Below, in pieces: positions 37,570 through 41,686 of a DNA stretch of 41,686 nt; positions within the stretch are counted from its first letter, which is position 1, and the number at the start of each line of letters is the position of its first letter. The notes below the pieces were generated by a model that was given only the letters and a program-made list of their open reading frames with translations, was not told the origin of the DNA and did no database searches. The stretch is from Gammaproteobacteria bacterium. GTDB taxonomy: Bacteria > Pseudomonadota > Gammaproteobacteria > SZUA-229. A program made the position numbers and the translations under genes. The DNA lies in assembly GCA_015488885.1 (NCBI GenBank), contig WFMW01000062.1, positions 1-41,686 on the forward strand, given 5' to 3'.

Positions 37570-39597
37570 TTATGTGTCGTTAAATGTCGAATTTATATCC
37601 TTCCACTGCACCCAGTCTTTTCGATTCTCCACAACATATAACAGGGTGGCGACAACGCGCCTGTCATAATGCGTATCAGCCTGGGCAAACAAACTGTCCA
37701 GTACATCTTTAAGCGGTTTACCCGGACGATAGGCACGTGAACTGGCCATCGCTACAAAAGCATTTGCTACTGCAAGAATACGCGATTCCAGTAAAATCCC
37801 ATCCCCGGATACCCCCTCAGGATAACCACTTCCATCCAGAAATTCATTTTTCTGTTTAACAATATCAAGCACCGGGCCTTCAAAAGACAAGCCTTCCAGA
37901 ATATCTATTGTGTATTGATTGTTTTTTCGTAACAGTTCTGCAGATGATGTTGTCAGCGGCTCTACACTGGTAAGAATATCATTAGATATTAACAATTTTC
38001 CAACATTTGCCAATAATGCTGCCAGCGCCAGTGTATTGATTTGCGCTTGTGGCAGCTGCATTTCCCGGGCAATAGCAATAGCCACTTCACGAGTACGCTC
38101 GGAATGGTGGATGCAGTATGGGTCATGTTTATCCACCAGAGCAACCAGGGTCTGAATAATGGCTTCCATCAGTCGGTTATGCCGACCCTGTGCGTCTTTT
38201 AAATCAGTAATATCATGCAGAACATATAAATGTGAATGCTTATAATCGCCTTCCTTTAATGCCACCACGGTTATATGATAATCATAACGTTTATTATTGA
38301 TTTCCAGGCGCATCTGTTGATTACGCACATCGTCATGTTTAATTGCCAGCAAACGTCTGCTGGTATCAACATCATAAAGATGGTTCAGTGCTTTACCTTT
38401 AACATCTAAAGGATTGACCTCAAGAAAATCTGCGAGTGCCAGATTAACCATAACAAGTTTCTCATTTCTATCCAGCAGAAAAATAAGATCTCTGATATTT
38501 CCACTTACTGCATCTAACAGCGCTGTTCTTGCCATTAATCTATCGGTCATTTTTTGCAGATGAATACTGCTGGCATGTCGCCAGATAGCGATAAAACTGA
38601 TAGTAATAAAGACGATAACCAGTAACAGGATAATTAAAATAAAGTGCTGGTGAGAGCGGGCTTCACGTAACGCTTCACCCGCATTAATTTTCTGTATTAA
38701 CACCCAGTCGGTATGGTTAATTTTTCTTGAAGTAACCAGCACAGAAATATTTTTATAATCTTTTGTCAGTGCAAAACCACCGATATTATTTACCCCAAAG
38801 CTGGCCGCATTGCCGGTCTCGGTAATCGGGTGCTGATAAAAAACCCTGTAACGACCTGACAACGGGCTAATATACATGATGCTGGCTTTGTGTTTTACCA
38901 CCAGCATCGATTTATCAGTATTCGTGGTCAACCAGTGCCTGCGTAGCATTTTATACAAGGAGCGGTCGGGGTTAATTACCGCCACCACAGCACCCCGATA
39001 ATCATCAGCCTTCATCGATTGTACCGAACGCACCGGGGTTGCAATAATAAACCTTGGTTGACTGGCCTGATTGCTGTAGATTGTCGAAACGACGGTTGCC
39101 CCGGCTTCAATAGCCCGCTTTGCCTGGCGCATGACCAGTGCATCCTTACGTGGAAAATAACGGGTCGATAATAAAACATCTTTGCGATTCAAAATAGCCA
39201 GTCCATCATTGATCGTTTGTGCCCGGTTATCTGCAACAGGTTTTACCGGAGTGAACAGATCCGACGATTGTGCGGAGGCATTCAACAAATTACGCAAATA
39301 ATGCAGCTGCCCGCGTTGCGATTCAGTGATATCTGATGATTGAAACTGGTTGATTTCGGTAACGTAAATCTGTACCAGTGGATTGGCCGCCAGGGTTTGC
39401 ATCTGTTGGCTCTGTTTTTGCAGCCAGCTTTCTATACTGCGTTTCTGTGACTCGGCAATAATACCCAGTCGCTGTTCCCAGCCCTGCAAATCCCGCCGTT
39501 GCTCGACCGCAACATACCTGAACACCACCCAGACCGCAATGCCGGTAACAATTAACAGAATGATGCTGGCCACAACCGCTGCCCGATTAAATTTCAA
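37570..39597 (-). CDS. dCache-PAS-HD-GYP membrane protein with degenerate HD-GYP
   Basis: A 675-residue inner-membrane signalling protein. Helix 1 (about 8-28), a large periplasmic dCache-like sensor (about 30-315) and helix 2 (319-339) precede a cytoplasmic PAS (about 355-465) and an HD-GYP domain (about 475-665). GYP is intact (DGSGYPEG, 588-595). Of the metal ligands only H498 remains: the HD pair is A530-N531 in ALLANVGK, the HHE triplet is replaced by KQK (581-583), and the late Asp is N612 in VANAFVAM. It should not hydrolyse c-di-GMP and may act as a binding or sensory protein. It starts 56 bases after the LapG-like gene. Confidence 0.88.
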   Translation of the reverse strand: MKFNRAAVVASIILLIVTGIAVWVVFRYVAVEQRRDLQGWEQRLGIIAESQKRSIESWLQKQSQQMQTLAANPLVQIYVTEINQFQSSDITESQRGQLHYLRNLLNASAQSSDLFTPVKPVADNRAQTINDGLAILNRKDVLLSTRYFPRKDALVMRQAKRAIEAGATVVSTIYSNQASQPRFIIATPVRSVQSMKADDYRGAVVAVINPDRSLYKMLRRHWLTTNTDKSMLVVKHKASIMYISPLSGRYRVFYQHPITETGNAASFGVNNIGGFALTKDYKNISVLVTSRKINHTDWVLIQKINAGEALREARSHQHFILIILLLVIVFITISFIAIWRHASSIHLQKMTDRLMARTALLDAVSGNIRDLIFLLDRNEKLVMVNLALADFLEVNPLDVKGKALNHLYDVDTSRRLLAIKHDDVRNQQMRLEINNKRYDYHITVVALKEGDYKHSHLYVLHDITDLKDAQGRHNRLMEAIIQTLVALVDKHDPYCIHHSERTREVAIAIAREMQLPQAQINTLALAALLANVGKLLISNDILTSVEPLTTSSAELLRKNNQYTIDILEGLSFEGPVLDIVKQKNEFLDGSGYPEGVSGDGILLESRILAVANAFVAMASSRAYRPGKPLKDVLDSLFAQADTHYDRRVVATLLYVVENRKDWVQWKDINSTFNDT

Positions 39598-39653
39598 ACC
39601 ATTCTCCGCTATCTTCTTTGAATACCCTTACGCACACGATCCTTACGTATAAA

Positions 39654-40328
39654 TTATTTTGGCACATGCATCCACCAGTGATTTTCATTAAGCGAATAAA
39701 CCGGCACATAATGAAAAATCGCATGATGGGATAACACTTCTGGAATCTGGTTATCCAGAATATAAACATCGCCTGCCCGTTGTATCGACATCACTGCGTG
39801 TGCGGTACGCAAATTGGTGTCCTGCACCACCACAATACGCATTTTATTCACATCATAGCCAAGCCATTTCATCGACAGCATTTTTATAATGGCATAGTCT
39901 TCACAATCGCCACTATTTATCAGAAACTCTTTGGGCGTTGCCCAGTAATCGGCCACCCCGTAGTTTTCAATATCCAGCACATAGGCTTTTTTATTTGCAC
40001 GCCGATTAACCGCCTCAATCTGCTGTTTACGGGATAAGCCACGAATACTGTCCAGAAAAACCAGCCATTGCTTGAGATCACAACGATTAAATGCTGTCGA
40101 TGAACAGTCACGCGCCTGCGCCAGATTTTTAACATGGCGTTCAAGCACACTTAGCCATTGCGGAAACATCGACAGGTTAGACTTTTCAAATTCCTGATAA
40201 CCGAACAGGTGCAGACTATCATGACTCACAGCCCAGACATTAAAACTGGCGAGTAGTGCTATACTCACTAACAATTGTTTTTTAAAAATTCGCATTAAGC
40301 CGTATAATACGCAACTTATTTTTTTCAT
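39654..40328 (-). CDS. LapG-type periplasmic cysteine protease (BTLCP/DUF920)
   Basis: A 224-residue transglutaminase-like cysteine proteinase with catalytic C142 in SGDCEDYAI, H177 in AHAVM and D192 in ILDNQ. The flanking D141 and E143 match the calcium-binding pair of LapG. A signal peptide ends near SFNVWA; ATG 40295 (MRIFKKQLL) gives the better signal, while ATG 40328 has AAGG nearby. LapG cleaves a large surface adhesin when cyclic-di-GMP is low. The adjacent gene encodes a degenerate HD-GYP membrane protein, and the divergent neighbour an outer-membrane protein. No adhesin is in the window. Confidence 0.88.
   Translation of the reverse strand: MKKISCVLYGLMRIFKKQLLVSIALLASFNVWAVSHDSLHLFGYQEFEKSNLSMFPQWLSVLERHVKNLAQARDCSSTAFNRCDLKQWLVFLDSIRGLSRKQQIEAVNRRANKKAYVLDIENYGVADYWATPKEFLINSGDCEDYAIIKMLSMKWLGYDVNKMRIVVVQDTNLRTAHAVMSIQRAGDVYILDNQIPEVLSHHAIFHYVPVYSLNENHWWMHVPK
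40281..40308 (+). promoter_or_regulatory. promoter for the TPR/outer-membrane gene, inside lapG-like 5' end
   Basis: TTTAAA (40281-40286) and a perfect TATAAT (40303-40308) are 16 bases apart, placing transcription start near 40315, about 45 bases before the plus-strand ATG. It overlaps the possible starts of the LapG-like gene, so the divergent genes may compete. Confidence 0.5.
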
Positions 40329-40360: not shown

Positions 40361-41686
40361 ATGAACATCTTATTTAATAATAGAATCAATAATACAATTA
40401 ATAATAGAGTCAATAATAAAATATTTTTATTCAGTTTTATTGTTGCATTTATCTTGTCTCTGAGTTCATCTGTTGCCTTCGCCCAGCAGAATACCACGAA
40501 TACCAGTACAGCTAAATCGCCAATGACCGATGCTCAAATCCAGCAATTATTTGACCTGGCAATGCAACAACGTGATAAAGGCAAAGTCTTTGCAGCGATA
40601 CAGACCTTTGAATACCTGCTTACCCGACGACCCTCACTTAACCGCGCACGCCTGGAACTGGCCGTCAGTTATGACCGTGCCAGCCGCTATGAAGCTGCTC
40701 AAAAACAGCTTAAAACCGTGCTGGACGACCCAAAAACACCAGAAAAAGTTCGCCTGGCCATACTCGCCTACCTCGGCCAGGTTAACAGTGATAAAAGCAA
40801 ACCCACCAGTCAACATCATTTATCTTACTACGCCAAAGCTGGTGTCCTTTATAATACCAATATCAACTTTGCACCTTTGCGCGGCAGTCCTGAATACCAG
40901 ATTCCTGATGGTCAGGACACATCCTCCCCCGGGCTGGATACCTTTTTCAGCATTTCTGATCGTTATTCACGCAAAAAACCGCTTAATATTGCCAGTTTAG
41001 CTACCCAGTTTCAATGGCAGAGCCAGGCATCCTGGACCGGCAATAATTACACTCGCACCAGTAAATATAATCTGAATATTTTTAGTTTAAGCACCGGCCC
41101 GGCATTTATCGCTACCGGCCACTGGCATGGTGCCATCAATGTCCAGCTGGATCAGGCCTATTTCGGTACCCGAACACTGGGCACCTTTATCTCTATCAAC
41201 CCACTAATCAGCTTTGATCTGGGTAATTATCGTAGCATTACTGTCGAAGCCTCCTATACCGACAATAATTTCTCACAATCTGCTGATAATGGCCGTGACG
41301 GCAATACCGCTTTGGCTGGAGCTGCCTGGACAAGCCTGTTTAATGGCACAAAAAATGGACTGGAAGCCGGTTTCAGACTCATCAACCAGAACGCTGATGA
41401 CGATCAGTATGGTTTTAACAGTAATGAAATATACCTGGGCGGCTTTATTGCCGCAGGTTCTGGTGCCAATATCTATATGAATGTCCATACACAGAAGTAT
41501 AATTATGATGCCCCGCCTGTTTTGAACAATTCCAATATCATTCTGCCATCACGTGATGAGCGGGAAAATCGTTTTGTTGTTGGCTATAACCGGGATATTG
41601 CCAACGGCCCCCTTAAAGACTGGACCGTAAACGCACATGCTTCATACACCCGAAATAATTCCAATGTGGATGCCTTCAGTTATGAC
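40361..41686 (+). CDS. TPR plus beta-barrel outer-membrane protein (3' end missing)
   Basis: The frame stays open from ATG 40361 to the window end (442 residues so far, no stop). A signal peptide (about 20-43, ending SVAFA) precedes a TPR-like helical region (about 60-145, with AIQTFEYLLTRRPSLNRARL). A beta-rich part then alternates aromatic and polar residues (YYAKAGVLYNTNINFAP onward), as in an outer-membrane barrel. This layout resembles the surface lipoprotein assembly modifier (Slam/DUF560) family, but I cannot confirm it. Four 12-base repeats lie in the signal-peptide codons. It is divergent from the LapG-like gene; ATG spacing is 32-65 bases depending on the lapG start. Confidence 0.75.
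   Translation, partial: MNILFNNRINNTINNRVNNKIFLFSFIVAFILSLSSSVAFAQQNTTNTSTAKSPMTDAQIQQLFDLAMQQRDKGKVFAAIQTFEYLLTRRPSLNRARLELAVSYDRASRYEAAQKQLKTVLDDPKTPEKVRLAILAYLGQVNSDKSKPTSQHHLSYYAKAGVLYNTNINFAPLRGSPEYQIPDGQDTSSPGLDTFFSISDRYSRKKPLNIASLATQFQWQSQASWTGNNYTRTSKYNLNIFSLSTGPAFIATGHWHGAINVQLDQAYFGTRTLGTFISINPLISFDLGNYRSITVEASYTDNNFSQSADNGRDGNTALAGAAWTSLFNGTKNGLEAGFRLINQNADDDQYGFNSNEIYLGGFIAAGSGANIYMNVHTQKYNYDAPPVLNNSNIILPSRDERENRFVVGYNRDIANGPLKDWTVNAHASYTRNNSNVDAFSYD
40376..40423 (+). repeat. four 12-bp repeats in the signal-peptide codons
   Basis: Units AATAATAGAATC, AATAATACAATT, AATAATAGAGTC and AATAATAAAATA lie head to tail, encoding NNRI-NNTI-NNRV-NNKI just before the hydrophobic core of the outer-membrane protein signal peptide. 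Unit number can change without shifting frame. Confidence 0.8.

Follow-up and report, generated by a model that had tools for sequence, protein, structure and literature searches.

A LapG-type protease paired with a degenerate HD-GYP receptor of the DvhD type in a gammaproteobacterium, with a small PAAG protein as candidate substrate

Results

A DvhD-like receptor gene adjoins lapG

The stretch of DNA analyzed here (the window; all 41,686 nt of contig WFMW01000062.1 from the gammaproteobacterial assembly GCA_015488885.1) encodes a LapG-type protease and, next to it, a membrane receptor with a degenerate HD-GYP domain, which very probably constitute the receptor-protease half of a DvhD-DvhG-type module in a gammaproteobacterium. 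For the complete explanation, namely that a DvhD-like receptor for cyclic di-GMP (c-di-GMP) restrains LapG from cutting a small exported protein with a PAAG site, we estimate a probability of about one half. DvhD of the sulfate reducer Desulfovibrio vulgaris Hildenborough binds c-di-GMP without hydrolyzing it (its PAS/HD-GYP fragment has an affinity of ~0.1 µM) and substitutes for LapD in controlling the LapG homologue DvhG, as was seen in a reconstituted host; DvhG cleaves within a [T/A/P]AAG motif (Font et al, 2026; PMC13090378).

The closest relatives of the receptor in the PDB, by sequence, were the DvhD fragments 9rc0 (1e-38) and 9rbz (1e-31). When an AlphaFold model of the receptor (mean predicted local distance difference test [pLDDT] score of 80) was compared by Foldseek, its PAS/HD-GYP part retrieved 9rc0 first, and its dCache part retrieved the periplasmic domain of DvhD, 9rc2, as the top dCache match (TMt 0.73). 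Pfam recognized HD_5 (E = 7e-33) and PAS (E = 4e-4), whereas dCache_1 (E = 5e-6, 26.7 bits) stayed below its cut-off of 45; the assignment of this domain is supported by the model. The order dCache, PAS, HD-GYP, with dCache between two membrane helices, is that of DvhD. Within the HD-GYP domain, HD is changed to AN, HH to KN, and the late D to N, with GYP retained, and because this combination is common to 28 to 30 of 30 orthologs, it represents a conserved state and not decay. Thus, the description of a dCache-PAS-HD-GYP protein that lost its metal-site residues and kept GYP, made from the window alone in the original prediction, agrees with Pfam, model, and alignment, as does the predicted 56-nt gap to the upstream lapG with the open reading frame coordinates. 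A phylogeny of 55 HD-GYP domains placed every one of the 39 degenerate sequences, including the single DvhD present, in one clade (Shimodaira-Hasegawa-like approximate likelihood ratio test 96.5, ultrafast bootstrap 99), apart from the 16 comparators, the majority of which retain HD and HH. Searching genome contigs with the receptor yielded only two Desulfovibrio HD-GYP genes, remote (26% identity) and intact in HD and HH, which served as comparators. In its own genome, the receptor matched only itself at E ≤ 1e-10, and a plasmid collection held no full-length relative. No 16S gene was found in the assembly of the window; the one from a same-family genome (G004) is ~87% identical to that of E. 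coli, and its best matches in the plasmid collection (87-88%) are gammaproteobacterial.

Most residues that form the canonical c-di-GMP site of DvhD are kept in the window receptor (Y523, L577, Y621, M646, R650, Y652, and R653; DvhD numbering). L577, Y621, M646, R650, and R653 are found in 30/30 orthologs and Y652 in 28/30.

The protease was matched by Pfam Peptidase_C93 with E = 6e-19 (68.8 bits; cut-off 27) and is the sole match to this family in its genome. The catalytic triad C142/H177/D192, which had been predicted to be intact together with the calcium residues, is invariant in all 36 aligned LapG sequences, two solved LapGs among them; the same applies to the acidic calcium-site residues D127, D141, and D144, and E143 is present in 35, the remaining sequence having an X. 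Against the equivalog model NF045674 of NCBIfam, the protein scored 79.9 bits (curated cut-off 320); by sequence, it is LapG-like and lies outside this narrow equivalog. Its N-terminus, judged by eye, resembles a signal peptide.

lapG directly adjoins the HD-GYP gene in every same-family locus whose upstream sequence is long enough for a test (23/23, the window included), three further same-family pairs being split across contigs. The same arrangement was observed in 11/11 loci from other families of the class and, for full-length receptor relatives, in 7/8 genomes from other classes of the phylum (L198-L205), so the conserved pairing on which the original prediction depended is real. In none of the seven aligned receptors from other classes is GYP intact, and all keep the late N; in two of these loci (L198 and L199), the pair adjoins genes resembling parts of a type 1 secretion system (T1SS). 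In genome G027, an in-frame 151-amino acid (aa) remnant (L110:8443-8898) fuses the beginning of lapG with the final part of the receptor gene, beside intact copies of the barrel, PAAG protein, and c3 genes introduced below.

LapD and LapA-type adhesins are not detected in the genome

LapD_MoxY_N (PF16448) was found neither in the genome of the window nor, by Pfam, in the receptor, and LapD is absent from 48 of 54 genomes of the family. In the same genome, RTX repeats were not found, nor did any LapA retention module score above the cut-off; these searches thus gave no sign of the true lapD and adhesin that would have spoken against a LapD analogue. Two weak matches to NF033682 (37.5 and 27.7 bits; cut-off 50) were rejected as LapA-type adhesins because they scored too low and covered profile positions 3-77 only; we suspect that they reflect a FecR-like resemblance. 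In the genus g5 (f1), three genomes carry a second lapG next to lapD, and the contig with this separate pair also encodes a LapA-type retention protein. One same-family genome without a receptor of the window type, G045, has a much stronger Peptidase_C93 match (5.6e-62; contig C243, L127), which may be another type of LapG or contamination.

Together, fixed pairing, absence of LapD, and kinship with DvhD support, at the level of sequence, the prediction that the receptor is an analogue of LapD in which a degenerate HD-GYP domain is used. The implied novelty of such a receptor was not sustained: the idea is not new in kind, because DvhD controls DvhG in Desulfovibrio (PMC13090378).

A small PAAG protein co-occurs with the pair

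A neighboring operon, described below, encodes a small predicted exported protein (c4) with a nearly invariant PAAG site of the LapG type. The published LapG consensus is [T/A/P]AAG, cleaved between the alanines; PAAG is retained in 30/34 orthologs and lies within their most conserved stretch, in the block DSVYxWGxW....PAAG. Four proteins from the family were scanned, yielding no Pfam match and a single NCBIfam match at chance level. In other families, the orthologs are mostly 330-430 aa long and have an extra stretch, which is TbpB-like in one.

Among the 54 family genomes, 26 have both lapG and the PAAG protein, one has lapG alone, one the PAAG protein alone, and 26 neither (Fisher 7e-13), not counting as lapG a canonical-type Peptidase_C93 protein in G045 and a sub-threshold match in G040. 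The genome with the PAAG protein alone is G027, which carries the fusion remnant. Across 369 genomes of the class, the PAAG protein (E below 1e-6) was found in 11, each with the lapG-receptor pair, that is, in 11/14 genomes with a full-length receptor and 0/355 without; three genomes with a full-length receptor lack it. It is also missing from G418, where lapG is followed by a 563-aa dCache-HD-GYP protein apparently without PAS (L194:9635-13378) and a divergent barrel gene is present. G046 encodes, away from lapG, a second protein of this kind (402 aa, PSAG) followed by a c3-like gene (L119:978-2780).

The PAAG protein is encoded with a type 11 secretion-like barrel

Divergently from lapG, the window encodes an outer-membrane barrel protein (c2) cut off by the contig end. 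Because this end shares sequence with the end of contig C63, C63 continues the locus; the tail of the barrel gene, the PAAG protein, and a c3 homologue were found there (Table 1). The model of an ortholog from G025, which shares 60% identity with the window protein, has a pLDDT score of 89 and consists of N-terminal TPR and 14 strands, the architecture of a type 11 secretion system (T11SS, Slam) pore. Pfam scores stayed below the cut-offs: TPR_Slam gave 24.4 bits for the window protein and 33.5 for the best ortholog (cut-off 35.2), and SlipAM 17.1 bits at best among orthologs (cut-off 22), the match being full-length but weak in one. No Slam structure was among the top 50 fold matches of the barrel model. 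In two genomes (G021 and G039), the barrel is kept, and lapG, receptor, and PAAG protein are all missing.

Table 1. Features of the lapG-receptor locus and of the divergent operon (window positions, unless a locus is named).
Feature	Position	Strand	Description
dvhD-like receptor	37570..39597	-	675 aa, TTG start; transmembrane helix, periplasmic dCache, transmembrane helix, PAS, stalk helix, degenerate HD-GYP
Degenerate HD-GYP of receptor, residues 484-648	37654..38148	-	Pfam, alignment
PAS of receptor, residues 367-462	38212..38499	-	weak Pfam PAS; aligns with PAS of 9rc0
dCache (periplasmic) of receptor, residues 47-301	38695..39459	-	Pfam dCache_1 under cut-off; Foldseek match 9rc2
lapG/dvhG-type periplasmic cysteine protease (BTLCP, Peptidase_C93)	39654..40328	-	224 aa; open reading frame, Pfam, alignment
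c2, TPR and 14-strand outer-membrane barrel resembling type 11 secretion (Slam) pore	40361..41686	+	442 aa, truncated by contig end
c3 homologue with VPLPL C-terminus	L109:13391-14107		contig C63, outside window
PAAG protein (c4)	L109:14141-14641		166 aa; contig C63, outside window

Discussion

By analogy with DvhD, the inner-membrane receptor would bind c-di-GMP through its catalytically dead HD-GYP domain and, in this loaded state, keep LapG off its substrate by means of the periplasmic dCache domain. When c-di-GMP falls, LapG would be released and would cut between the alanines of the PAAG site. As to the substrate, the likeliest candidate would be the small exported protein from the operon with the T11SS-like barrel, and not a giant RTX adhesin; its cleavage would free or inactivate a surface or periplasmic protein. 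Both c-di-GMP binding by the window receptor and the direction of control are taken over from DvhD, and we likewise infer that LapG cuts the PAAG protein and that the barrel exports it. On balance, we favor the PAAG protein as the LapG substrate, with less assurance than we have in the module itself. Still more tentative is the generalization that c-di-GMP, via a DvhD-type receptor and LapG, controls the proteolytic release of T11SS-like cargo, which would be a third secretion route served by LapG, after those of type 1 and type Vb adhesins.

Several observations weigh against this proposal. On the substrate side, the co-occurrence counts of PAAG protein and pair ignore shared ancestry, and four orthologs deviate in the motif: three from one genus have PASG or SASG, lapG being present in two of these cases, and another has PSAG. 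Explaining the PASG of G027, where the pair is lost, as decay was rejected, because the related G012 and G036 have lapG yet also no PAAG. Moreover, only ~15-50 residues separate the signal peptide from PAAG in most orthologs (judged by eye), fewer than a LapA retention domain comprises. In one other family (f57) and in two genomes from other classes, the genes next to the pair encode a large cadherin-like repeat protein or resemble those of a T1SS, and the genome of the window may encode a giant adhesin without RTX repeats. On the receptor side, K582 of the canonical DvhD site is not retained, and E668 is frequently Q among the 30 orthologs. In the bridging site, K520 is H and R569 is E or D in 30/30; the equivalent of P567 is proline in 29/30 and S in the window receptor. 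Given the changed bridging site, the receptor may bind c-di-GMP differently than DvhD does.

The adhesin loci just mentioned are also what sustains the strongest alternative, a plain DvhD-DvhG system whose substrate is a large adhesin encoded at another locus, the barrel and PAAG protein serving another process. This would conform with the characterized LapG substrates, which in the literature covered are large adhesins, and with the LapA-type retention protein accompanying the lapD-lapG pair of genus g5. We nevertheless consider it rather unlikely, given a genome in which neither RTX repeats nor an above-cut-off retention module were detected, the restriction of the PAAG protein to pair-bearing genomes among the 369, and the position of the motif in the most conserved stretch of that protein. 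The latter can be turned around, because the motif is part of a wider conserved block and some PAAG proteins have an additional domain (TbpB-like once) typical of T11SS cargo; PAAG could then be part of a signal for targeting to, or docking at, the barrel and resemble the LapG consensus by chance. Such a signal appears improbable in view of G021 and G039, which retain the barrel yet lack lapG, receptor, and PAAG protein together, and of the PAAG protein tracking the pair over the 369 genomes. Least probable of all, that the HD-GYP protein senses an outside ligand and controls LapG from the dCache side, its dead HD-GYP domain being a dimer scaffold, would fit the dCache fold (ligand-binding in many receptors, with amino-acid chemoreceptors among the fold matches here), the altered bridging site, and the loss of even GYP in other classes, but is opposed by the invariance of most canonical c-di-GMP contacts in the orthologs and by the affinity reported for the DvhD fragment.

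We prefer, therefore, the reading of a DvhD-like receptor that restrains LapG from cutting the PAAG protein. In this reading, the pairing of LapG with a degenerate HD-GYP receptor is the known part, and the target side, barrel and PAAG protein, appears to be new. Gammaproteobacterial members may already be contained in the class-level distribution of DvhDG published by Font et al (PMC13090378). In the open-licence literature searched, no paper was found that links LapG with a T11SS-like barrel or a small PAAG protein, or T11SS with LapG or c-di-GMP; the presence of a lapG pair beside both suggests a kind of cargo not previously tied to LapG. DvhD-type c-di-GMP receptors now extend to several gammaproteobacterial families, with a related form in other classes of the phylum, and LapD is thus not the sole solution there. 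Should LapG indeed cut the PAAG protein, its signaling would not be limited to giant adhesins, and a testable function would be assigned to a protein that neither Pfam nor NCBIfam names. Species with both lapD-lapG and dvhD-lapG pairs would permit a comparison of the two receptors within a single cell.

With type 11 secretion (Slam, DUF560), the divergent operon shares the N-terminal TPR and 14 strands as well as, in one PAAG protein, the cargo-like TbpB_B_D domain, but it differs in its sub-cut-off Pfam scores and in the lack of Slam among the top fold matches. The LapD-LapG system of Pseudomonas fluorescens has in common with the window a LapG-family protease with its triad and acidic calcium-site residues and, as proposed here, the inside-out logic; in contrast, the genome of the window has no LapD_MoxY_N, and Pfam reports neither GGDEF nor EAL in the receptor. 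DvhD-DvhG differs in the bridging c-di-GMP site (K to H, P to S, and R to D in the window), in DvhG of Hildenborough having a transmembrane domain in place of the signal-peptide-like N-terminus of the window LapG, and in that neither RTX repeats nor an above-cut-off LapA retention module were detected in the genome of the window, whose pair is gammaproteobacterial and situated near a T11SS-like barrel and a PAAG protein. The two agree in the order of dCache, PAS, and HD-GYP, in the loss of the metal site, the late D being changed to N in both, in a receptor gene adjoining that for a LapG-type protease, and in HD-GYP domains that belong to one clade.
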